A stretch of 54,482 nucleotides of DNA from Candidatus Poribacteria bacterium. Its GTDB lineage: Bacteria > Poribacteria > WGA-4E > PCPOR2b. Shown here piece by piece: positions 12,780 to 27,252 of the stretch. The stretch is taken from contig JAJEAL010000040.1 of NCBI GenBank assembly GCA_022822785.1, positions 1-54,482 on the forward strand, given 5' to 3'. A program made the translations under genes and the position numbers. The number at the start of each line of letters is the position of its first letter. The stretch's first letter is position 1. A model generated the notes under the pieces. It made no database searches. It saw only the letters and a program-made list of their open reading frames with translations, and was not told where the DNA came from.

Positions 12780-13961
12780 TCACGTTTTGACAGGTCGTTT
12801 ATCCGTCCCAAGTAGGATTAATGCTGCCACCGCTGCAATCACCGATACTGCACCTGCAATAATGAACGCCCCGGATAGTCCCACCGCATCGGCGACAGCG
12901 CCGGCGGTCGCTGGTCCCAAAAACATGCCGATCGCGTATATTGCCTGAAACACGCCCATTGCGGTCGCTCGATCTTCACCGGATATCTCCCGGATACTCA
13001 GTCCCATTAACAAAGGGTAAACGAGACCTCGCCCAAACCCACTTGTGCCTTGGGCAATGGTCAGGAGTGGTATATTGTGGATCAGTGGGACAACAAACAT
13101 CGTCACGCCCATCACCAGAACGCCTACAAAGACGGCCCGATTTTCGCCTAAGCGAACAGCGAAATGATGGTTCATCGGGGCGGTTAACGTATAGGGTACC
13201 AAAGCGGCTACCCCAATGATGCCGAGGGTGAATTTGTTTGCACCGAGATTCGCCGCATGAACCGGAATAAAGCCAAACGTGGTCGCCCAGAATGTGTAGT
13301 GGTTGAGCGCGGTGATGGAGGCCACGAGCATTAGGGAAGGGTGCGTCATAATGCGCCATATCTGTCGAAAGGTGGGAGGTTGACGCGTCATCCGATGTTC
13401 CTTGATCGGCACTGTTGCTATCAGTCCCATGGCCGCTAGAACGGCACCCGCATAGAATGTAGTACCCATCTCCCACATCTGCGCGATTTGGCCACCTAAC
13501 CCGTTGACAACAATAAGCGAGATACCATTGATGGCTGTAACAACGCCCATCGCCTTGGGGCTCTGATCCGGTGGGAAGTAGCTAGCAAAAAGGACGGTGA
13601 ACGCGACCCATGTGGCAGCACTGATACCGAGCACACCGCGAAAGATTATCAGGTAAATCGGTGTCGGTGCCAGCGCGAGCCCCAAACATCCAACGAGATT
13701 AAAAAAATGTCCGGCATAGAGAAAGGGCAGCCGGCGTCCCAACCGATCCGACCAAATCCCCAACGGAACTCGCAGCCACATCTGTACAAAGCCGTACGCC
13801 CCGACAACCATTCCCACAGTCGTGAACGAGGCGCCCAATGACTGAGCGTATACCGACAGAATTGGCGAGTAGATATACAGCGCCCCCCAATAGAGAAACA
13901 TACTGACATAGTACGCCCGGATGGTAGTTTTCTCAGGAAAATTAGGCTGCGTCCTATTCAT
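12780..13961 (-). CDS. Major facilitator superfamily transporter
   Basis: A 393-residue protein with twelve hydrophobic segments and the MFS loop 2-3 signature (GIWSDRLGRRLPFLYAG). A shorter equivalent follows segment 8. The repeated GxxxAxxxGP and GFGRGLVYPLLMGLSIRE patterns fit the drug/sugar-type branch. A small-molecule exporter or importer of the inner membrane; the substrate cannot be told. It lies 29 bases downstream of the paralogue pair 13991-16286 on the same strand and may be co-transcribed with it. Confidence 0.88.
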   Translation of the reverse strand: MNRTQPNFPEKTTIRAYYVSMFLYWGALYIYSPILSVYAQSLGASFTTVGMVVGAYGFVQMWLRVPLGIWSDRLGRRLPFLYAGHFFNLVGCLGLALAPTPIYLIIFRGVLGISAATWVAFTVLFASYFPPDQSPKAMGVVTAINGISLIVVNGLGGQIAQMWEMGTTFYAGAVLAAMGLIATVPIKEHRMTRQPPTFRQIWRIMTHPSLMLVASITALNHYTFWATTFGFIPVHAANLGANKFTLGIIGVAALVPYTLTAPMNHHFAVRLGENRAVFVGVLVMGVTMFVVPLIHNIPLLTIAQGTSGFGRGLVYPLLMGLSIREISGEDRATAMGVFQAIYAIGMFLGPATAGAVADAVGLSGAFIIAGAVSVIAAVAALILLGTDKRPVKT

Positions 13962-13990: not shown

Positions 13991-15139
13991 TTAGAACCGG
14001 ACCTGAACCAACGATGTCCGCACTTCAATATCGGGGATCCGCGCATCTCCACCGCCAACAGGATAAACTGTAATGGATGGGAAAGACAGATTCCATCGTT
14101 TCTCAACGGGTTCAAGATTGAGCAGCCCCACCCCACTTTCAGTGAAATAACTCGCCTGCGTATCGTAGTTCCGGGTAAAATAGGCACCCGCTGTTAATCC
14201 GACCGCACCACCAAGCCCCATGAGTGACCAGAACGTCTTGTCAGCCGGCTCAATATCGAGCAGGATACTCGTGCCTAAACCGTAGAGTGTACCTACGATG
14301 CCCCCAATGTTAATAAGACGGGCGCGAGCACGACTCATGCTTAGTTTTGTCGACCACGCCGCCATGGTCAACAGCCCAACGTTGCCGCCCGTCATTGCAC
14401 TGCCTAGAATAAAGTTCCTGTTATCCCGGCTCCTGTCGCGCAGAGCCATCGCCCCGCAAATCGAAAACCATGTCCCCCAGATTCCACCGAAATTAATCAG
14501 CGTTGCATCGCCGGGACTGATGTCTCTACCGCTGACAATACTGCTAGCCAACGCCAATCCAATGGCACCACCCGCCATGCTCGCGCCCACGGTCGGTTTA
14601 TCATCCACACCGGCGAGGTTTGCCGCCCCGACCGCCTGCCAGATGCCCCAAATGCCTCCAAGATTAATCAATGAAGCCTGCCCATCGCTTAATTCACTGT
14701 CCCGCGTCAGCCTTAAAGAACCGGCTAATCCGCTCAAGGGGCCCGCGATTAAAACGAGACCGTAAGGGACCGGATCCTCGGCGTCCGCAAGAATCAGTGT
14801 ACCAATGCCTAGCCATGTGGTGTAGAACGTACCGAATCCAACCAATCCCGCTCTGCTCATCCCACTAATTGGCTCAGGTTGCTGTAACAGGATAGCGACC
14901 TCGCCCTTTTTGTCGGTTGCCAATCGTCCGTGCAGCGTTTTAGGATACGCAGAGATGACCCAATTCAGTCCATTGAGGGCTTTATCATACTCCCCATCGA
15001 CAACCTGCTCAACCGCTGCTTCATAGATTAATTGTGCTTCCAGCGCCTTGATTTCCGATTCAATCTCATCCGCCCACAACGGGTGTGTGACGGTAAGAAA
15101 GAGGGAAATGATAATAATTCGGATAAGTTGACTTGTCAT
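13991..15139 (-). CDS. Unrecognised exported protein with TPR-like start and Gly-rich repeats (paralogue B)
   Basis: 382 residues from ATG 15139; the frame is open to 15274, but that part would overlap the upstream paralogue. A signal peptide (IIIISLFLTVTHPLWA) is followed by a tetratricopeptide-like segment (YDKALNGLNWVISAYPKTLHGRLA). The rest is built from about four repeats of roughly 55 residues, each with LINxGGxWGTW or similar, then a GG-rich hydrophobic stretch and a hydrophilic Asp-rich turn. The C-terminal residue is Phe (VRTSLVQVRF), as in outer-membrane barrels. It is clearly homologous to its upstream neighbour, from which it is separated by 46 bases. I do not recognise the family; an envelope location is inferred. 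Confidence 0.75.
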   Translation of the reverse strand: MTSQLIRIIIISLFLTVTHPLWADEIESEIKALEAQLIYEAAVEQVVDGEYDKALNGLNWVISAYPKTLHGRLATDKKGEVAILLQQPEPISGMSRAGLVGFGTFYTTWLGIGTLILADAEDPVPYGLVLIAGPLSGLAGSLRLTRDSELSDGQASLINLGGIWGIWQAVGAANLAGVDDKPTVGASMAGGAIGLALASSIVSGRDISPGDATLINFGGIWGTWFSICGAMALRDRSRDNRNFILGSAMTGGNVGLLTMAAWSTKLSMSRARARLINIGGIVGTLYGLGTSILLDIEPADKTFWSLMGLGGAVGLTAGAYFTRNYDTQASYFTESGVGLLNLEPVEKRWNLSFPSITVYPVGGGDARIPDIEVRTSLVQVRF

Positions 15140-15185
15140 GGTTTCAACCCCTTTAATTGCTGGCTCAATGGATAAAAATCCGTGA

Positions 15186-16286
15186 TTAGAATCGGACACT
15201 GAGTAAATTGGCGCGTACCCCATCAGGACGCAACTGTAGCTGGTGAGGACGTAGTTTCCAAGTCGTCCAATCATTCCGACGACTTAACCTTTCACGCGCC
15301 TCCGGGGGCGGAAGATGATGGGTAGTGTAGGTGCCCGTAATAAGCCCAGCAATGCCGCCAACTATCAGTAAGGTCAATCCAGCTTCCTCACTCATATTGG
15401 CGTCAGCAATCACCACCATCCCGCTAGCAACGATAGTGCCGATAACCCCTCCCAGATTAATCCAATTTGCTCGCGCCAAGGTAATGTCAATTTTTGGGGT
15501 CAGCAGTGCCATTGCAGCCAGCCCTATATTGCCCCCAATGAGCGTCCAGGCGAGTAGCTCATCACCATCTGCCAAGCCTCCAACCCTTCCTGCGGTCATC
15601 GATAGCCATGTTCCCCACAGCGCACCGTAATTGATAATCCCGATATCTCCCAAGCTCGGATCAATTCTTCTTGTGAGGGCAGCGGTCGCTAGAATACCTG
15701 ATAGCCCCCCGATCATGGCACCACCAATCAACGGCTTTTCACCATCATCTTCATCGATTAGAATTGCCCAACCGAATCCCTGCCATGTTCCCCAAGAACC
15801 ACTGGAATTGATTAAAGCGGATTGTCCACGAGTCAATTTAGCGTTGCGGGTAGCAATCAGAGAGGCCAAAAGCCCCGTCGGCGCCCCTATCATCATACCC
15901 CCAGCGATAGTTTTTGCGTTGTCCGTTTCATCAATAAGTCGCGCAGTGCCAATTCCCAACCATGTCGAATATAAGGTGCTGAACACCACCGTCCCAACTC
16001 GCCCGCTCTGGTCAATTTTTTTTCGCCGGATGCTTGGCAGGTTTAGCTGTTCCAACTGTTGCCTCCGATTTTCAGCAAACCGCGCATAGACAGTGTCGGG
16101 GTATCTGTCAATGACTTCATTGAGCCGATCATATGCTTCACCGTAATCCCCTTCAACTATCAGCCTGAAAGCGGTCTCGTATAGCTGGGCGGCTTCGCTC
16201 GATTCAGCGAAAATCGCAGTTGACTGAGACAATAACGTGCATACAAGAACTGTGATTAGCGCTATTCTACTGTGTTTATGAATCAT
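15186..16286 (-). CDS. Unrecognised exported protein with TPR-like start and Gly-rich repeats (paralogue A)
   Basis: 366 residues. Signal peptide (IALITVLVCTLLSQSTAIFA), then a TPR-like helix pair (GDYGEAYDRLNEVIDRYPDTVYARFA), a basic linker, and about four glycine-rich repeats centred on LINSSGSWGTW, IINYGALWGTW and WINLGGVIGT. It ends VRANLLSVRF with terminal Phe. The layout is the same as the following gene (13991-15139), so the two arose by tandem duplication. AAGGGATGAG upstream supports the start. The alternation of Gly-rich hydrophobic and Asp/Glu-rich segments could be membrane hairpins or barrel strands. Function unknown. Confidence 0.75.
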   Translation of the reverse strand: MIHKHSRIALITVLVCTLLSQSTAIFAESSEAAQLYETAFRLIVEGDYGEAYDRLNEVIDRYPDTVYARFAENRRQQLEQLNLPSIRRKKIDQSGRVGTVVFSTLYSTWLGIGTARLIDETDNAKTIAGGMMIGAPTGLLASLIATRNAKLTRGQSALINSSGSWGTWQGFGWAILIDEDDGEKPLIGGAMIGGLSGILATAALTRRIDPSLGDIGIINYGALWGTWLSMTAGRVGGLADGDELLAWTLIGGNIGLAAMALLTPKIDITLARANWINLGGVIGTIVASGMVVIADANMSEEAGLTLLIVGGIAGLITGTYTTHHLPPPEARERLSRRNDWTTWKLRPHQLQLRPDGVRANLLSVRF

Positions 16287-16762: not shown

Positions 16763-17323
16763 CTAAAAATAGGCGTGTATACCGGTTCCCACGTAAACGC
16801 CAGCACGCCCCTTGGATTGAGTATCAACGGTTTCCCTGCCAAACCCTTGACCGACTTTCAGGTTCAAACCGAGAGGAATCCCTCCCAATGAAAACACAAG
16901 TTCCCCTCCAAAAGCGAGTCCAACGCCGAGAGTCGTGGTTTTGACCATCTCTTGACTGAGCGCCTGCTTTTTTTGATACCGCCCACCACCCTCCAACGCG
17001 AAATAAAGGCGGGCTATATTCCATTGACCTTGGTGCTCGAAGATAGCATATGAAACACCACCACCGAGTATATGGTCGCTATCCTGATCATTGAGTACAA
17101 AATGTCCAACGGTTTGAAAATAGACGGGTGCCAGTCCGTTATAGCGAAAACTGAGTCCACCAAGAATCGGCTCCGACTGTTCTTGAACAAGGCCGTACGC
17201 AGCTGTTGCTCCCTGAAGCCCAATACCGAAATTTCTGGTGAGGTCAGCTGCTTGGACTTGAGTTGAGAAACTAAAGGTTACTCCCAAAAGCATAGCCATT
17301 AAGCAAAAAATTGAACGTATCAC
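16763..17323 (-). CDS. Small outer-membrane beta-barrel-like protein
   Basis: 186 residues from a GTG start at 17323, chosen because AAAGGAG lies eight bases upstream; the frame is open to 17407, but that region is not protein-like. A clear signal peptide (about 1-26, ending STQVQA before ADL) precedes a mature part of alternating Gly/aromatic and hydrophobic strands (NFGIGLQGATAAYG, GGVSYAIFE, ARLYFALEGGGRYQ, GVGLAFGGELVFSLGG) and a terminal Phe. This is the pattern of an eight-stranded outer-membrane barrel. No named family recognised. Confidence 0.72.
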   Translation of the reverse strand: MIRSIFCLMAMLLGVTFSFSTQVQAADLTRNFGIGLQGATAAYGLVQEQSEPILGGLSFRYNGLAPVYFQTVGHFVLNDQDSDHILGGGVSYAIFEHQGQWNIARLYFALEGGGRYQKKQALSQEMVKTTTLGVGLAFGGELVFSLGGIPLGLNLKVGQGFGRETVDTQSKGRAGVYVGTGIHAYF

Positions 17324-17373: not shown

Positions 17374-17690
17374 TATAGTGGCTCTTAGAATTAATGAGAC
17401 GCTCCAAACCGGTGCGGTTGGAAACCGCACCTACCGGGGAGGTACAGCGTCGCCATCAACGACGCAGCCCCTATCGAAACACCGGCGCGGTTGGATGAAG
17501 ATTAATTTATTAATTGGGTAATTTGCTATTGACACCAGCGCGGTTGCAAACCGCGCCTACCGGGTCTTGGGGAAATATAGAGTTACCCGATTATTTTCTG
17601 AAACTTCATCCAACCGCACCTACCGGCGCCGATAAATCGGGATTGAAACCGAGGAGCGAAGGTATCTATTTATTTTTGGAATTCACCATA
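17374..17690. repeat. MITE-like element, copy 3, compound
   Basis: The left end TATAGTGGCTCTTAGAATTA (from 17374) matches the reverse complement of the right end (GGAATTCACCATA, ending 17690). Inside are hairpins GGTGCGGTT-GGA-AACCGCACC (17411-17431) and GCGCGGTT-GCA-AACCGCGC (17538-17556), and the inverted copy of the 421-590 element (17493-17604), suggesting one element inserted into another. It accounts for most of the gene-free 17324-17705 stretch. Confidence 0.7.
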
Positions 17691-17705: not shown

Positions 17706-19367
17706 TTATTGAGCGATGAGTATGGTTACCCGATTTGGCTCGGCGGTGGACGGGTGATGCATGAGGAGGTCCTGCATTCCGTCCTTATTGAGGTCTACCA
17801 ACTGTGTGTATTCCTCGTAGGGCATGGTGACCGCTACCTTTTGAGGTTTCCGGGCGAACAGATTCGGTCCCGGCACACCGTTAAAAACGCGTAGTTCTTT
17901 CTGTCCATGCTGTACCAATAGGTCAGCACGTCCGTCGCCGTTCACATCTCCAAACAGCAACGACGGAAAGTGCATGGCTTTCTCCCCTGAATCGCCGGGG
18001 GTGTATGTCTTGATCTTGTACGCGGCGTCATGTTTGTCGGGATACGAGTTTCCCTCCATGCGGTAGAGATGGAAATCCAGCAATGCGGAATGCGTCACGA
18101 GCCCCCTTGCCAACATACCAATGATTTTGAAGATGCTCGGATCGATAACCGCAAACATTATATCAACCCGATCATCGTGGTCGAAGTCACGCGCGCCAAT
18201 CTCGAACGGGATACCGTCCGACCGAATCAGCGTATCAACCTTTTTCCCGAATACGGTGCCGCCGGGCGTCGGTGCGCCGAAGTGCACCTCGTAAGTCGAG
18301 CGCATATTCCACATCTCTGAGGTCTGCCCTAGGAAACGGCTGCTCCCTGCCTGCAACGAGAAGACCGCTAGATCGGCGATACCATCGTGGTTGACATCAG
18401 TCAACGCGTGCAGCACCCTCCCTGTCATGGCACCGGGCGCTCCGTGATCGAAACGCCGGCCGCGAACCCCATCCGGAGCAACAAGTGAGGCGAGGTCGTC
18501 GGAGTCGAAGGTTACCTCGGTTGTGAAGGTCTCAGCCACCGGAGAAAACAGTCCGCGCTCATCTTGATGATGAACGACGAAATGATCTTCGTTCCAGAAC
18601 ACGAGATCGCTGCGTCCATCTCGATTGTAATCTACCTCATGGATACGTCCTTGGTCCCACGGGGTGTATCGGTATCCGTCGGCTGCGTAGATTCTGCCCG
18701 TCTCAACGGGAGGACCAATCTTCACTGGGTCAGCGAACGCGCCGTCCTCCATCTGAATAAATATCCAGAAGCCATCGGCGTCCGGCACGACCAGATCATC
18801 GCGATTGTCGCCGTTGAGGTCCCGTGTAACGTCAACATGAGGGATTTCGTCTTCAGGAGGTAAGGTGTTAGAAACCACCGTCACCAGTGGGTGTTCCGCT
18901 GCGGAATCAAGATCGAACCAATTCAGGAAACCGTTCCTGTAAGTAATCAAGCGGTCACGTCCACCGATGTTTCCCACATCGACAAATAGCACTTCGGGGC
19001 CCAGCGTTGTCTCCAGTCTTAGGTCCCAACTGTCCTCACTGAACGTGTAGATGTGCAAGTAGCGGCTGTCGTCTGCGTCGATGTTCACCACGACAAGTTC
19101 TGCGGTAGTGTCATCGAGCAGAAACCCCGTCAAAACGGTCTGACGTTTCGCGGTGCCGGTGCCGACCTCATACCGCTCAAACCTAAATTCCGTGGGGACG
19201 GGCGACATCGGATCCGCTTCTTGACCGAACAACCCTGAACAGCCCGCCAAGAAAGCTCCAAAAATCAGCGTAAAGAACCGGCTGAATTCATAGTACTTCA
19301 TGTGATTAGTGGTTAGGTTAAGTTTTGTGAAAAGGAAGTGTTTGTAGACTAGGTTTCGCTTTTTCAT
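17706..19367 (-). CDS. FG-GAP/VCBS-repeat lipoprotein
   Basis: A 553-residue exported protein. The hydrophobic segment FFTLIFGAFLAGC carries a lipobox (LAGC), so it is probably a lipoprotein. The mature part has repeated calcium-binding FG-GAP-like motifs DxNGDxxxDL (DLNGDNRDDLVV, DYNRDGRSDLVF, DVNHDGIADLAV, DFDHDDRVDIMF, DVNGDGRADLLV, DLNKDGMQDLLM), consistent with a seven-bladed integrin-like propeller on the cell surface. The ATG at 19367 has AAAGGA upstream; the ATG at 19301 would place the signal peptide closer to the N-terminus but has no ribosome-binding site. A palindrome matching the TetR gene's operator lies 49 bases upstream, so it is the likely regulatory target. Confidence 0.85.
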   Translation of the reverse strand: MKKRNLVYKHFLFTKLNLTTNHMKYYEFSRFFTLIFGAFLAGCSGLFGQEADPMSPVPTEFRFERYEVGTGTAKRQTVLTGFLLDDTTAELVVVNIDADDSRYLHIYTFSEDSWDLRLETTLGPEVLFVDVGNIGGRDRLITYRNGFLNWFDLDSAAEHPLVTVVSNTLPPEDEIPHVDVTRDLNGDNRDDLVVPDADGFWIFIQMEDGAFADPVKIGPPVETGRIYAADGYRYTPWDQGRIHEVDYNRDGRSDLVFWNEDHFVVHHQDERGLFSPVAETFTTEVTFDSDDLASLVAPDGVRGRRFDHGAPGAMTGRVLHALTDVNHDGIADLAVFSLQAGSSRFLGQTSEMWNMRSTYEVHFGAPTPGGTVFGKKVDTLIRSDGIPFEIGARDFDHDDRVDIMFAVIDPSIFKIIGMLARGLVTHSALLDFHLYRMEGNSYPDKHDAAYKIKTYTPGDSGEKAMHFPSLLFGDVNGDGRADLLVQHGQKELRVFNGVPGPNLFARKPQKVAVTMPYEEYTQLVDLNKDGMQDLLMHHPSTAEPNRVTILIAQ

Positions 19368-19390
19368 CCCTGTTTTCCTTTCAGGATTCT

Positions 19391-19428
19391 CTATGTATTA
19401 ACATAGATAAATAACTTAACAGTGTTAA
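19391..19428 (-). promoter_or_regulatory. Operator palindromes upstream of the FG-GAP lipoprotein
   Basis: TTAACA-G-TGTTAA (19416-19428) is the same palindrome as that at 20239-20251 before the TetR gene. A second palindrome, CTATGT-ATTA-ACATAG (19391-19406), sits closer to the start codon. The rest of 19429-19600 contains only a decayed repeat end (ATGGTGAATTTTAAG, 19493-19507). Confidence 0.65.
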
Positions 19429-19600
19429 CATAGAAGCAAAAAAAATACGGCGACCTTCGCCATATAACTGAGGGGTGCTCATACATCGAATTGATGGTGA
19501 ATTTTAAGTCCATTTGTTTAAGGCACTACTGCAATGGTAACATACCGACGCAGTTTTCCGTTCCAAATAAACCGCGTACGCTCCTGAAATAGCTTAAAAT

Positions 19601-20206
19601 CTATGCCTTCAAACCCTCGATCATTGTGTCAATCACTGTGTCGATTAATTTGTCTTTTTCTGTCCAGGGGAAATCGGGAAAATCAATCAGGAGCAATGTG
19701 ACGCCGTGAACCGCAGACCACAGTGCCTGCCCGGTGGTTTCGACATCCACTTGGCGGAATGCCTGTTGTCGGACACACTCGGAAACCATCGCGCGCAGGT
19801 AATTAAACACCCTTTCGCCAACCGATCCTTCCCCTAGACCTAGCCCCTGCTGGAACTGGGGCCGGATGACAAACGTCAGCTTGTAATCTTGTGGATACTG
19901 TAGCCCAAATTCGACATAGGCTCTCCCACTTTTTCTTAGCGTCTCAATGGGGTTGCTTTTATCCCTGTTTAGCAGCTCCAGCGTATTTAACAGGCTCAAG
20001 AGGGTTTCTTTGCAAACAGAATCTAAAAGATCTGCCTTATCTTTGAAATAAAGGTAGATCGCTGTCGGTGAATACTCAATCTTATCAGCAATCTTCCGCA
20101 TAGAGACATTCTCGTAGCCTTCATTGACGAATAACTCTCGCGCTGCCGAAAGAATTTGCCGCTGTAACTGCTCTTTTTCTCTCGCTCTGCGTTCTTTAGT
20201 ACCCAT
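19601..20206 (-). CDS. TetR-family transcriptional regulator
   Basis: A 201-residue protein with an N-terminal TetR helix-turn-helix (ILSAARELFVNEGYENVSMRKIADKIEYSPTAIYLYFKDKADLLD, about 17-65) and a helical ligand/dimer domain ending FPWTEKDKLIDTVIDTMIEGL, like the TetR_C/WHG group. It most likely represses its own gene and the FG-GAP lipoprotein: the palindrome TTAACA-N-TGTTAA occurs at both promoters, and in its own promoter the operator abuts the -10. The ligand is unknown. Confidence 0.9.
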   Translation of the reverse strand: MGTKERRAREKEQLQRQILSAARELFVNEGYENVSMRKIADKIEYSPTAIYLYFKDKADLLDSVCKETLLSLLNTLELLNRDKSNPIETLRKSGRAYVEFGLQYPQDYKLTFVIRPQFQQGLGLGEGSVGERVFNYLRAMVSECVRQQAFRQVDVETTGQALWSAVHGVTLLLIDFPDFPWTEKDKLIDTVIDTMIEGLKA

Positions 20207-20238
20207 TGTTTTGCCCCCGATTTACACAGTAACTTTAC

Positions 20239-20279
20239 TTAACACTGTTAATTATACAGAATGTTTCCTCCCCTGTCAA
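20239..20279 (-). promoter_or_regulatory. TetR gene promoter with operator
   Basis: On the minus strand: TTGACA (20279-20274), 17 bases, TATAAT (20256-20251), a perfect consensus promoter. The palindrome TTAACA-C-TGTTAA (20239-20251) directly follows the -10, an ideal repressor position. Beyond it, 20280-20530 holds nothing I can identify. Confidence 0.78.
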
Positions 20280-20530
20280 GATTTTTTTTGTATCCGTAGC
20301 ATTTTTTATGTTTTCAAAGAACGATGCTCACAATAAACATCTATCAGCATCGAGTTTAGGGAAGGGAGATGGTATTCCATGTTCGACAATCTACTATTGG
20401 ACTGCCCGGTATAAAACCCACCAGACTAATCAGCCTGTGGTGTCCATTACACGGCGAACTACTCGCAAAGCGACCGATGCGGTGAAAGCCACCGTGCTTT
20501 TGTGCTTGCGAATAAACCGTCTCGAAATAC

Positions 20531-21028
20531 TCATTGGCAGGCCGAGCAGATACCAAGAATCTCGATCACTCTGGATTGAACCTGAAAGTCAAGTTTCTCG
20601 GCGGCGCTAGCAATACACTTCTCGATCGTGTGACTGACAAGCTCAGTAGCCTCGCCACACAATTTGCAGATGACAAACTGGCCGCGATGCGGTTCCTGTG
20701 GGAAGTCACACCCGATATAGGCGTTTAACGAGGCGATCCGATGAATCAAACCTTGCTCAAGCAGAAAGTCGAGGGCGCGGTAGATGGTTGGCGGTGCGGT
20801 TTTCCGGCCGCGTTTTTGAAAGGTGTCAAGAATATCGTAGGCGCCGATTGGCTTGTGGCTGGCGCACACGAGTTCAAAAACCTGTTTGCGTAGCTCGGTA
20901 AATCGCGCGCCTCGCCCCTGACAGATCGCCAAAGCCTTTGCCAATGCGTCTTTGACGCACTGAGAATGGTCATGAGTTGGTTTGGGAAAGGCGTCAAATG
21001 TTGTGTTTTCGGCATCCGTAAAAGACAT
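20531..21028 (-). CDS. zur: Fur-family zinc uptake regulator (Zur)
   Basis: A 165-residue metal-sensing repressor. Winged-helix DNA-binding domain (about 25-100, with TAPPTIYRALDFLLEQGLIHRI), then the metal/dimer domain with HRGQFVICKLCGE (CxxC 121-124) and C-terminal CSACQ (CxxC 161-164), the structural zinc site of Fur/Zur proteins. The Zur assignment rather than Fur rests on the operators: palindromes closely matching the proteobacterial Zur-box core ATGTTATA-N-TATAACAT lie over its own promoter and that of the divergent znuA-like gene. AAGGAG precedes the start. Confidence 0.88.
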   Translation of the reverse strand: MSFTDAENTTFDAFPKPTHDHSQCVKDALAKALAICQGRGARFTELRKQVFELVCASHKPIGAYDILDTFQKRGRKTAPPTIYRALDFLLEQGLIHRIASLNAYIGCDFPQEPHRGQFVICKLCGEATELVSHTIEKCIASAAEKLDFQVQSRVIEILGICSACQ

Positions 21029-21056: not shown

Positions 21057-21090
21057 ATGTTATATTATGACATAACGCTGTTTTTGTCAA
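21057..21090 (-). promoter_or_regulatory. zur promoter with Zur box
   Basis: ATGTTATA-T-TATGACAT (21057-21073) is a 17-bp palindrome with one mismatch. On the minus strand TTGACA (21090-21085), 17 bases, TAATAT (21067-21062) forms the promoter, so the box covers the -10. This predicts autoregulation of zur. Confidence 0.8.
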
Positions 21091-21192: not shown

Positions 21193-21232
21193 TTGACTTG
21201 ACTTCTGATTTTGTTATGTTATAATATAACAT
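21193..21232 (+). promoter_or_regulatory. znuA promoter with perfect Zur box
   Basis: ATGTTATA-A-TATAACAT (21216-21232) has perfect 8-bp arms. TTGACT (21198-21203), 16 bases, TATAAT (21220-21225) places the -10 inside the box, so a bound repressor would block transcription when zinc is sufficient. Confidence 0.85.
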
Positions 21233-22929: not shown

Positions 22930-24045
22930 ATGACTGAAATTCAAGACCTCACAGAACCGATTCCGGTGACCATCATCAGCGGCTTTTTAGGCGCGGGCAA
23001 AACCTCCCTGCTCAACCACATTCTCAACGCCGATCACGGATTGCGCGTGGCGGTATTGGTCAACGATTTTGGAGAGGTTAACATTGACGCCGAGTTGATC
23101 TCTGGCGTCTCTGGGGAATCCACCATTAACCTTTCCAACGGGTGTATCTGCTGCTCAATTCGCGACGACCTGCTTGAGGCCATGGTACAATTGGTTCAAC
23201 GTCCAGACCCGCCGGAGTATATCGTGGTTGAGACCAGCGGCGTATCTGACCCTCTGGCGGTTTCATTGACCTTCATGGCGCGCGAATTGCGGTCGGGTGC
23301 GCGAGTGGACAGTATGCTGACCGTGGTTGATTCCGATCAGATTGATCACGTAGACGGCAAGCATCGGGTGCTCGCGTTAGACCAAATCGCTATGGCAGAC
23401 ATTGTGGTACTGAACAAGGTTGACTTGGTCAATGATGAAAAACGGGAGAAATTGGCAGCCTTTGTCAAAAAGCTTGTTCCGAGGGCGCGTATCCTCGAAA
23501 CCACACACGGTAAGGTTCCGCTCGATTTGGTGCTCGGCGTCGGGACATACGACCTCCGCCGCTTTTCGGGGAAATCGGGCTTGGATGTTCACGTCCATGC
23601 CGATGGCGAGGCGCATGACCACGACCATGCACATGGCCGCGAGGATGACCACCATCACGAACACAGTCACGCGCACGACCATACGTTGGTTTTTAATACG
23701 TGGAGTTATACGACCGACAAACCGCTATCACATCAGGCAGTGCGTCAAGCAGTGAAGACCTTACCGGCGACGATTTACCGCGCCAAAGGCTTTGTCTATC
23801 TTGATGAGACTCCGGATCGGAAGGGAATCGTCCACGTTGTCGGCCAACGGGCGCGTTTGATTATTGGTGAGCCATGGGCCGACGAGAAACCGGGCACGCA
23901 GTTGGTTTTTATTGGTGAGTATGGCGGTATGGACGATTGCGAGTTGCAGTCACGTTTTGATGCGTGTCAAGCTACAGAGAAAACACGCCAAGATGCAGTT
24001 CTTGAGGACGCTTTTGAATTGCTTCGGGACCTTGTGGAGAGGTAG
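22930..24045 (+). CDS. COG0523 (CobW/ZNG1-type) GTPase metallochaperone 1
   Basis: A 371-residue G3E-family GTPase. Walker A SGFLGAGKTS (17-26), the diagnostic metal motif GCICC (71-75), ETSG switch region and NKVD base-recognition motif (162-165) are present. A His/Asp-rich stretch (221-251) follows, then the CobW C-terminal domain (KGFVYLDETP ... VFIGEYGG). These proteins deliver metal, often zinc, to client enzymes at the cost of GTP. AAAGGAG precedes the start. Context (znuA, zur, FmdB) supports a zinc-limitation role. No Zur box is seen directly upstream. Confidence 0.92.
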   Translation: MTEIQDLTEPIPVTIISGFLGAGKTSLLNHILNADHGLRVAVLVNDFGEVNIDAELISGVSGESTINLSNGCICCSIRDDLLEAMVQLVQRPDPPEYIVVETSGVSDPLAVSLTFMARELRSGARVDSMLTVVDSDQIDHVDGKHRVLALDQIAMADIVVLNKVDLVNDEKREKLAAFVKKLVPRARILETTHGKVPLDLVLGVGTYDLRRFSGKSGLDVHVHADGEAHDHDHAHGREDDHHHEHSHAHDHTLVFNTWSYTTDKPLSHQAVRQAVKTLPATIYRAKGFVYLDETPDRKGIVHVVGQRARLIIGEPWADEKPGTQLVFIGEYGGMDDCELQSRFDACQATEKTRQDAVLEDAFELLRDLVER

Positions 24046-25899: not shown

Positions 25900-27252
25900 A
25901 TGAACACAGCCATGCTAAACAATCAGGTCCCCGTCACCGTGTTGACGGGCTTTTTGGGATCTGGTAAAACCACGCTTCTCAATCGCATTCTCACCGAAAA
26001 CCACGGCAAACGTATCGCTGTCATCGAAAACGAGTTTGGCGAGATCGGCGTCGATAATGATTTGGTCATCGGTGCCGAAGAAGAGATTTTTGAGATGAAC
26101 AATGGTTGCATCTGCTGCACGGTGCGCGGCGATCTTATCCGTATTTTGGGAAATCTGATGAAGCGTCGCGATAAGTTCGACTACATCATGGTCGAAACCA
26201 CAGGGCTTGCGGACCCCGGGCCGGTTGCTCAGACGTTCTTCATGGACGCCGAAATGCAGGAGAAACTGCAACTAGATTCGGTCACGACGGTGGTTGATGC
26301 CAAACACATCTGGCAGCACATCGACGACAGCGACGAGGCGCGTGAACAGATTGCCTTTGCCGATGTCATTTTGTTGAACAAGATTGATCTTGTGACCGAG
26401 GAAGAGTTGAATCAACTGGAAGCCAGAATTCGCAGCATGAACGCTGCAGCAAAGATTTATCGAACGAAAGACGCCGCGGTCGAAATGGATAAAATTCTCG
26501 ATGTCGGCGGATTCGATCTGGACCGGGCGATGGAGGTTGACCCACAGTTTATGGAACCGGAGTATCCCTTTGAATGGGCTGGTGTTTACAACCTTTCGGC
26601 AGGTACGCATGAACTGATTCTCCAAGACGGTCCTGACCCGACGATGAAAGTCGCGTTGGTGCCCGTAAATGAGTTAACCGATGAAGCTTTGCAGGCCGCT
26701 GTTGAGCCAGTCGTTATAGTTTTCTCCGATGATGAGCATGAACTTTCGGCGGGTGGCACCGTTCAACCGAGTGGACAACTCATTGAGTTGAATCTCACAG
26801 CGGACGAATTACGCTTTGACGTGCAGATTGACCACCCTGGCGCTTACGCGCTGTTTACCGAGCATCACCCCGACGAATTTCAAGCACAACTTTTTGGCAG
26901 CGGCACCCTTGTCAAGCCGGTTGTTGAACGCGAATTTAAGCCAGACCACGAACATGATGACGAAGTCACATCGGTCGGCATTACAACCCCCGGCGACCTC
27001 GACCCCGATCGGCTGAACGATTGGATTGGCAATCTGCTTCGGACAAAAGGTCTCGACATCTTCCGCATGAAAGGTATTCTGAGCATCAAGGGTCAGCCGA
27101 ACCGATTTGTCTTCCAAGGTGTTCATATGCTTTTCGATGGTCGTCCAGACCGCCCGTGGGGTGGTGAACGACGCTACAATAGTCTCATCTTCATCGGGCG
27201 CAACCTCGACCGGGCCGAATTGACTGGGGGGTTTGAAGCATGTCTCGCTTGA
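25900..27252 (+). CDS. COG0523 (CobW-type) GTPase metallochaperone 2
   Basis: A 450-residue G3E GTPase with Walker A TGFLGSGKTT (about 16-25), metal motif NNGCICC (ending 73), VETTGLADP and NKID. Compared with the first GTPase it has an insert of about 100 residues (PVVIVFSDDEHELSAGGTVQPSG and following) between the G domain and the CobW C-terminal domain, and a shorter metal-rich segment (KPDHEHDDE). The C-terminus has RMKGILSIKGQPNRFVFQGVHML, the long-form COG0523 signature. AAGGAGAG lies upstream. The last 13 bases overlap the WD40 gene. Confidence 0.92.
   Translation: MNTAMLNNQVPVTVLTGFLGSGKTTLLNRILTENHGKRIAVIENEFGEIGVDNDLVIGAEEEIFEMNNGCICCTVRGDLIRILGNLMKRRDKFDYIMVETTGLADPGPVAQTFFMDAEMQEKLQLDSVTTVVDAKHIWQHIDDSDEAREQIAFADVILLNKIDLVTEEELNQLEARIRSMNAAAKIYRTKDAAVEMDKILDVGGFDLDRAMEVDPQFMEPEYPFEWAGVYNLSAGTHELILQDGPDPTMKVALVPVNELTDEALQAAVEPVVIVFSDDEHELSAGGTVQPSGQLIELNLTADELRFDVQIDHPGAYALFTEHHPDEFQAQLFGSGTLVKPVVEREFKPDHEHDDEVTSVGITTPGDLDPDRLNDWIGNLLRTKGLDIFRMKGILSIKGQPNRFVFQGVHMLFDGRPDRPWGGERRYNSLIFIGRNLDRAELTGGFEACLA

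Follow-up and report, generated by a model that had tools for sequence, protein, structure and literature searches.

The tetR-Lipoprotein Locus

The Poribacteria are a group known from marine sponges. The stretch of DNA analysed here, called the window below, comprises 54,482 nucleotides of a Candidatus Poribacteria contig (JAJEAL010000040.1, assembly GCA_022822785.1), and the genes of interest lie on its minus strand. An open reading frame at 19601-20206, here called tetR, encodes a 201-aa regulator that Pfam, alignment and a structural model assign to the TetR family. The protein combines a TetR_N domain (PF00440; E 7e-16, 58.2 bits against a cut-off of 24), with the helix-turn-helix segment RKIADKIEYS, and a C-terminal TetR_C_33 domain (PF13305; 41.2 bits, cut-off 26.8). 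Its model has a mean pLDDT of 92 and nine helices, and the best hits of the fold search are TetR-family structures.

Which known regulator is closest? Twenty families of named NCBIfam TetR equivalogs (e.g., FadR, AcrR, KstR and ScbR-like) appear among the matches listed, all of them below cut-off (best 43.9 against 150 bits). FadR of B. subtilis and B. halodurans, PfmR, EthR2, and Rv0078 are among the nearest solved structures and have the TetR fold in common with the poribacterial protein (Foldseek E of about 1e-7 to 1e-6), but identity is only 17-26% and the best phmmer E-value over the PDB is 8e-9. Their ligand class is not transferable to the poribacterial TetR.

Downstream of tetR lies the gene of a putative FG-GAP beta-propeller-like lipoprotein (17706-19367, minus strand). 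Translation probably starts at 19367, giving 553 aa, rather than at 19301, giving the 531-aa form that was used for the family searches and the fold. The longer form is favoured because the stretch around AAAGGA...ATGAAAAAGCGA recurs, by eye, in many aligned upstream regions, and because a remnant of the gene in a relative (G001, described below) aligns with the longer form from residue 1 on (53% over 49 aa). FG-GAP repeats are recognised by PF01839 (58.4 bits, cut-off 22.1) and PF13517 (56.3 bits, cut-off 26.9). The signal peptide of bacterial lipoproteins ends in the lipobox cysteine, and a lipobox-like FGAFLAGC can be seen by eye in the translation. The predicted structure (pLDDT 80) consists mainly of beta structure, and the first places in the fold search go to propeller proteins, at low TM-scores (at most 0.36 of the query); the nearest folds are FG-GAP/VCBS propellers such as ITFG2 of KICSTOR and the PLL lectins, at about 7-12% identity. 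The VCBS domain PF13517 is reported to be very abundant in single-cell genomes of Poribacteria (PMC3909097). Lysozyme inhibition, brought up by weak PliI/XAC2610 matches, was rejected as a function of the lipoprotein, as these matches cover only short stretches at the Asp-rich repeat.

The following gene (16763-17323, minus strand) is the probable operon partner of the lipoprotein gene. It has a GTG start and encodes a protein of 186 aa whose N-terminus resembles a secretion signal and whose last residue is Phe. The match to the outer-membrane beta-barrel domain OMP_b-brl (PF13505) is weak (E 0.0053, 17.4 bits, under the cut-off of 28.7), and two of 18 member sequences match at E of 1 or less; taken with the terminal Phe, this match makes an outer-membrane barrel a likely prediction. 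Of 52 stretches, that of the window among them, 46 encode this protein next to the lipoprotein gene or close to it, and relatives show 50-89% identity by tblastn. The gap between the two genes measures 386 bp in the window, compared with 21-214 bp in relatives of the same gene order, one exception (L094) having 1,319 bp. No terminator was found in the gap of the window. It does hold a 9/12 promoter-like site (17602-17574, minus strand), one of five such sites in 1.5 kb, where shuffles give 1.3. The barrel gene may therefore be transcribed from its own promoter as well. REP-like repeated palindromic units around GGTAGGTGCGGTT...AACCGC are visible by eye at 17420-17640, within this unusually long gap.

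A promoter scan of positions 19200-20500, with a minimum score of 9/12, returned only two promoter-like sites, both on the minus strand. The tetR promoter, TTGACA-17-TATAAT (20251-20279), scores 12/12, while the lipoprotein promoter, TTAACA-17-TATGTT (19400-19428), scores the minimum of 9/12. A terminator-like hairpin with a T-tract (19445-19465, minus strand) was detected between tetR and the lipoprotein promoter. Both promoters and the terminator are consensus matches, and as chance alone gives 2.0 promoters and 1.3 terminators in shuffles, the scan of this region by itself proves nothing. The lipoprotein gene was also considered as a plain read-through partner of tetR; this was rejected in view of the hairpin between the genes and the promoter-like site of the lipoprotein gene itself.

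A Palindrome Shared by Two Promoters

The two promoters share a palindrome. The 13-mer TTAACANTGTTAA is found exactly at 19416-19428 and at 20239-20251, upstream of the lipoprotein gene and of tetR, respectively, as the preliminary description had it; these are its sole copies in the window, and 100 dinucleotide shuffles of the window contain none. In the promoter of tetR the palindrome, here called O1, reads TTAACA-G-TGTTAA on the minus strand and covers the final base of the -10 box as well as the expected transcription start. It had been described as directly abutting a perfect promoter. The promoter is indeed perfect, but the two do more than abut: they overlap by one base, the T at 20251. 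In the lipoprotein promoter, the first half of O1, TTAACA, is also the -35 box.

The 5.6-Mb genome contains four exact copies of the 13-mer, two of them being those of the window. Of the other two, one falls within a predicted ORF (C134), and the second straddles the start codon (ATG) of such an ORF (C63). Both were rejected as members of a regulon on account of these positions, and because neither comes within three mismatches of the 31-bp site described below.

Conservation in Poribacteria

Is the arrangement kept in related genomes? Both proteins were searched for in 58 genomes, including that of the window, and 51 stretches around the matches were retrieved. With an E-value below 1e-60 as the criterion, 33 genomes have a tetR ortholog, and all 33 also have the lipoprotein gene. 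Among the 25 genomes that lack tetR, 15 retain the lipoprotein gene and 10 have neither. When 320 bp upstream were searched, O1 with at most one mismatch was present at 29 of 32 testable tetR genes, window included, always between 31 and 40 bp ahead of the ATG. Two mismatches were counted in each of L068 and L096, and three in L090, which makes these genes the exceptions. These counts include a 5'-fragment (L100) and leave out two genes cut by contig ends (L072, L075) and a piece without a start (L087).

At the lipoprotein gene, O1 (again with at most one mismatch) precedes 44 of the 47 copies that have tetR in the same stretch, window included, and the three copies without it (L071, L073, L074) are later members of tandem arrays. 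By contrast, it is found within 320 bp of none of the 15 copies without tetR in the stretch, a count that rests on few independent losses because 13 of the 15 share one genus. The gene order is reversed, the barrel gene coming before the lipoprotein gene, in 12 of the 15 tetR-less stretches with a barrel gene; together with the origin in one genus, this means that a Fisher test on the contrast overstates the independence of the cases. In one of the 15 (L097, genome G054), tetR is on another contig and a site lies farther upstream, before a deacetylase gene. A copy in G039 (L085) was left out because it has less than 150 bp upstream, as were rows without an N-terminus (e.g., L101); in G039 the contig extends only 100 bp upstream of this gene, and tetR may therefore be absent from the assembly only.

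Two exceptions among the relatives are informative. In G044 and G054 (L090 and L096), the order is lipoprotein, barrel, tetR, with tetR last; here the site of tetR itself has decayed, and the lipoprotein gene is preceded by two sites, one of the tetR type and one of the lipoprotein type. The protein search found neither a tetR ortholog nor a lipoprotein match in G001. However, its genome has a site one mismatch from the 31-bp pattern, followed by an ORF of 101 aa (site and ORF at L232:4116-4455) whose similarity to the lipoprotein covers residues 1-49, after which it ends. This locus corresponds to that of the window, since the adjoining MFS gene is 85% identical to the window's gene at 12780-13961. 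To judge from its sequence, the site with its truncated ORF is a fossil of the circuit.

A Probable Bipartite Operator

When the promoters of both genes are aligned on O1, a second element, O2, is apparent 18 bp downstream: TTATCTATGTTAA at the lipoprotein gene and, in its usual form, ATnACTATGTAAA at tetR. In the window, the O2 of the lipoprotein gene (19398-19410, minus strand) overlaps the -10 box TATGTT, and that of tetR (20221-20233, minus strand), identified by upstream alignment and offset scoring, is weak, with a conserved right half. Second sites were scored against TNAACANTGTTNA, with a maximum of 10, at 66 offsets. Offset +18 ranks first of the 66 at the lipoprotein promoters of Poribacteria (7.73 of 10; 44 sites), where the coincidence of O2 with the -10 position partly explains its conservation otherwise, and also at their tetR promoters (6.24, runner-up 5.62; 29 sites), although none of these 29 sites scores 8 or more. 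The same offset ranks first at distant tetR homologs (5.71; 41 sites, from loci among the best 80 of 194).

The distant homologs allow a test with less redundancy. Forty of the 47 distant loci (the 41 with O1 minus L153, a near-duplicate) were reduced to 36, still drawn from the best 80 of 194; in these, +18 scores 5.67, compared with a maximum of 3.83 over offsets 13-33 in 500 shuffles. A good second site is not universal, as 16 of the 36 score at least 7. Among the 41 sites scored before this reduction, O2 scores are as low as 0 in L152 and L153 and 2 in L150, L157, and L176, and the last of these has a strong partner on the opposite side of O1. Both palindromes reach the full score, at a distance of 18 bp, in Clostridium (L183) and Paenibacillus (L189). 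The real operator is thus probably a 31-bp pair of palindromes with an 18-bp spacing and not the single 13-mer, a reading based on alignment and scoring.

A genome search for further sites, as the preliminary description had proposed, was made with the longer pattern. When three mismatches are allowed, the 31-bp site has exactly two matches in the 5.6 Mb of the genome, those at the tetR and lipoprotein promoters already known, and the reversed pattern, as a control, has none. Over all 58 genomes there are 86 matches in the 33 that bear tetR (one site being counted on both strands) and six in the other 25; the reversed control gives 13 matches in the whole set.

In some relatives the regulon appears to be larger. 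The 31-bp site, with at most two mismatches, precedes a polysaccharide deacetylase gene in six of them (G040, G042, G032, G015, G054, G035). These are six of 30 upstream regions, which cover 30 of 36 deacetylase matches, one with only 99 bp (L262); the remaining 24 have at least seven mismatches. A close copy of the deacetylase in G037 is without the site, and in the genome of the window the sole copy (L251) is diverged and likewise lacks it. In G026 the deacetylase gene is located between two lipoprotein genes.

Related Regulators in Other Phyla

Genome contigs were scanned with short peptide patterns, including KIADKIEY, and the best 80 of 194 loci were kept, 47 of them from outside Poribacteria; the operator played no part in this selection. 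The segment RKIADKIEYS is near-invariant across 33 aligned sequences, which is partly built in because KIADKIEY was among the search peptides. In a tree, the poribacterial TetRs form a supported clade (100/100) that groups moderately with Acidobacteriota (93/84, 87/87).

Among the 47 non-poribacterial homologs (best 80 of 194), 41 have an O1-type palindrome within 120 bp upstream, with at most two mismatches in the 10 specified bases. In 27 of the 47 (best 80 of 194), no more than 2% of windows drawn at random from the locus match equally well; in the other 20, six of which lack a site, the share is higher, so single matches there are not individually significant. The distant palindromes are symmetric variants (TTAACA/TGTTAA, TAAACA/TGTTTA, TGAACA/TGTTCA) or mixed, and symmetric half-site changes are as expected for a dimer. 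As a control, the 250 bp upstream of eight other TetR-type genes contain no exact palindrome, one with one mismatch and two with two mismatches. These eight come from nine weak TetR matches, that of G007 being left out, and the start of one (L270) is poorly called. That tetR and the lipoprotein gene have one operator type in common, as first proposed, agrees with all of these comparisons: the type is kept at both promoters in relatives, gone where tetR is missing, and present at distant tetR homologs. In several Bacteroidota (L181, L185-L187, L191-L195), the operator abuts a TTTGC/TTTTGC element, which we take to be the -7 promoter motif of that phylum; in Poribacteria, O1 stands next to TATAAT in a comparable manner.

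What do these regulators control? Exporter genes were recognised by eye next to 11 of 16 distant loci inspected (from the best 80 of 194), seven of RND type, three of ABC type, and one MFS; at the other five (L154, L162, L175, L183, L189) none was recognised by eye. A Pfam check of nine neighbouring proteins from five loci identified a MacB-like permease, an ABC ATPase, and HlyD in Acidobacteriota (L146, L149), OEP, HlyD, and an AcrB-type RND protein in Rhodocytophaga (L158), and an MFS protein in Salsuginibacillus (L165). The regulators beside RND genes (Bacteroidota, Ignavibacteriota) or MacB/HlyD ABC genes (Acidobacteriota) share with Poribacteria a homologous TetR, the same type of palindrome and, as a set, the +18 partner. 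In contrast to these loci, the genes downstream of tetR in Poribacteria encode the lipoprotein and the predicted outer-membrane barrel in place of pump components. In Clostridium (L183) and Paenibacillus (L189), tetR is followed, by eye, by a gene for a membrane-like protein of about 293 aa and a flavodoxin-like gene; the Clostridium protein of this pair has no Pfam match.

A Model of the Circuit and Its Alternatives

The reading that we hold with high, though not complete, confidence is that TetR acts as a ligand-releasable repressor of the tetR and lipoprotein promoters through 31-bp bipartite operators. Regulators of this family bind palindromes, commonly within the promoter of their own gene, and a small-molecule ligand releases them. 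Here, one TetR dimer would bind the strong O1 and another the weaker O2, centred 18 bp downstream. At the tetR promoter, occupation of O1 over the edge of the -10 box and the expected transcription start would result in negative autoregulation; at the lipoprotein promoter, dimers on the -35 (O1) and -10 (O2) boxes would block the polymerase. A small, perhaps amphiphilic molecule binding in the C-terminal pocket would release the dimers and allow the lipoprotein/barrel operon to be made, and in some relatives the polysaccharide deacetylase would have been added to the regulon. From the sites, their conservation, their joint loss with tetR and the cross-phylum link, we infer binding, the two dimers, repression, the ligand, co-transcription, and surface location. 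The small circuit for a surface protein that was initially envisaged holds, on comparative grounds, in so far as it is a circuit with a shared operator. Its target is probably wider, an operon of the lipoprotein gene and the predicted barrel gene whose co-transcription is presumed from their arrangement, and the word "surface" is suggested by the lipobox-like signal and the neighbouring gene.

The long double site suggests two dimers by comparison with known TetR-family proteins. In PMC4150764, QacR, CgmR, Ms6564, and CprB are reported to bind in pairs of dimers to cognate sites of 28, 32, 31, and 22 bp, respectively, and cooperative binding is given for QacR and CprB. The poribacterial operator shares its length with these sites, its 31 bp falling within their range of 22-32 bp, and its two dimers are proposed by analogy. 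It differs in being made up of a strong and a weak 13-bp palindrome that are separable and spaced by 18 bp; the two CprB dimers occupy opposite sides of a 22-bp site.

Could one TetR dimer bind the 13-bp palindrome alone, O2 being no operator but a -10 box or part of the leader? O2 is degenerate in Poribacteria, and at the lipoprotein gene it coincides with the -10 TATGTT of the 9/12 promoter. At the tetR promoter, however, O2 lies downstream of the -10 box and cannot be one, yet it keeps the same 18-bp offset, and both the full-score pairs of L183 and L189 and the prominence of +18 in the 36 de-duplicated distant loci speak for a genuine second site. Binding by a single dimer thus appears unlikely, although it is the most credible of the alternatives to a bipartite operator bound by TetR. 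It is very unlikely that TetR activates the lipoprotein promoter instead of repressing it. Some TetR-family proteins are activators, and a weak 9/12 promoter would suit one, but the geometry at both promoters is that of blocking, with O1 on the -35 and O2 on the -10 box in one case and O1 over the expected transcription start in the other.

The two remaining alternatives question the link between TetR and the palindromes. TetR genes are common next to unrelated operons, and as the binding of TetR is deduced from sequence, another regulator might bind the palindromes with tetR nearby by accident. This we regard as very unlikely, because the site precedes homologous tetR genes with different neighbours in other phyla and the lipoprotein genes of stretches that lack tetR have none within 320 bp. 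Chance palindromes in A+T-rich intergenic DNA have a negligible probability. The 25 relatives without a TetR ortholog do contain a mean of 0.84 exact 13-mers per genome, a figure in which the fossil site of G001 is counted; against this stand the constant position of O1 before 29 of 32 testable tetR genes, the restriction of the 31-bp form to two promoters in 5.6 Mb and the lack of exact 13-mers in the shuffled windows.

Why would a repressor of this type control a lipoprotein? The export-pump neighbours in other phyla suggest a membrane-active or amphiphilic ligand for the poribacterial repressor. It is possible, and put forward here tentatively as somewhat less than an even chance, that a cross-phylum group of TetRs (with the KIADKIEY-type helix and the 18-bp tandem operator, often encoded next to pumps) was retargeted in Poribacteria to a surface module of propeller lipoprotein, barrel and sometimes deacetylase, so that an amphiphile from the host or the environment would remodel the surface rather than trigger export. 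That signals of the sponge host are the trigger is speculation.

Implications for Uncultured Bacteria

The type of circuit is familiar, whereas its regulon (lipoprotein, barrel, and sometimes deacetylase) is unusual. Among the literature matches listed, which cover titles and abstract openings and thus the field in part, none deals with this operator or its double form with 18-bp spacing, or with an FG-GAP lipoprotein under the control of a TetR; such silence is weak evidence of novelty. The poribacterial genomes used are MAGs, so that gene control must be deduced. Since the operator is precise, the predicted regulon is compact and relatives without the regulator and its sites provide a natural contrast, the circuit is suitable for testing in E. 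coli without culturing the organism. The helix type and the 18-bp double operator also provide a lead for recognising related TetRs across phyla and mapping their targets, and the Poribacteria suggest that an envelope module can be served by a type of repressor that often accompanies export genes.

Neighbouring Genes

Upstream of tetR, a Zur-like gene of the Fur family (20531-21028, minus strand) and a ZnuA-like gene (from 21390, plus strand) are separated by palindromes of the TGTTATANTATAACA type at 21058-21072 and 21212-21231, one exact and others with one or two mismatches, which presumably are Zur boxes. With up to three mismatches, TGTTATANTATAACA has seven matches in the window, where 1.07 are expected. 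The Zur-like gene was considered as part of the tetR system because it is adjacent and was rejected, as the adjacency recurs in only one of the 51 retrieved stretches (L067). Two genes near the ZnuA-like gene (22930-24045 and 25900-27252) resemble, by eye, GTPases of the CobW/COG0523 type, with GFLGAGKT/GFLGSGKT and CICC motifs; together with the ZnuA-like gene they suggest a zinc-homeostasis cluster. On the other side of the lipoprotein and barrel genes, two adjoining genes (13991-15274 and 15186-16286) encode predicted membrane proteins that, by eye, look similar to each other.
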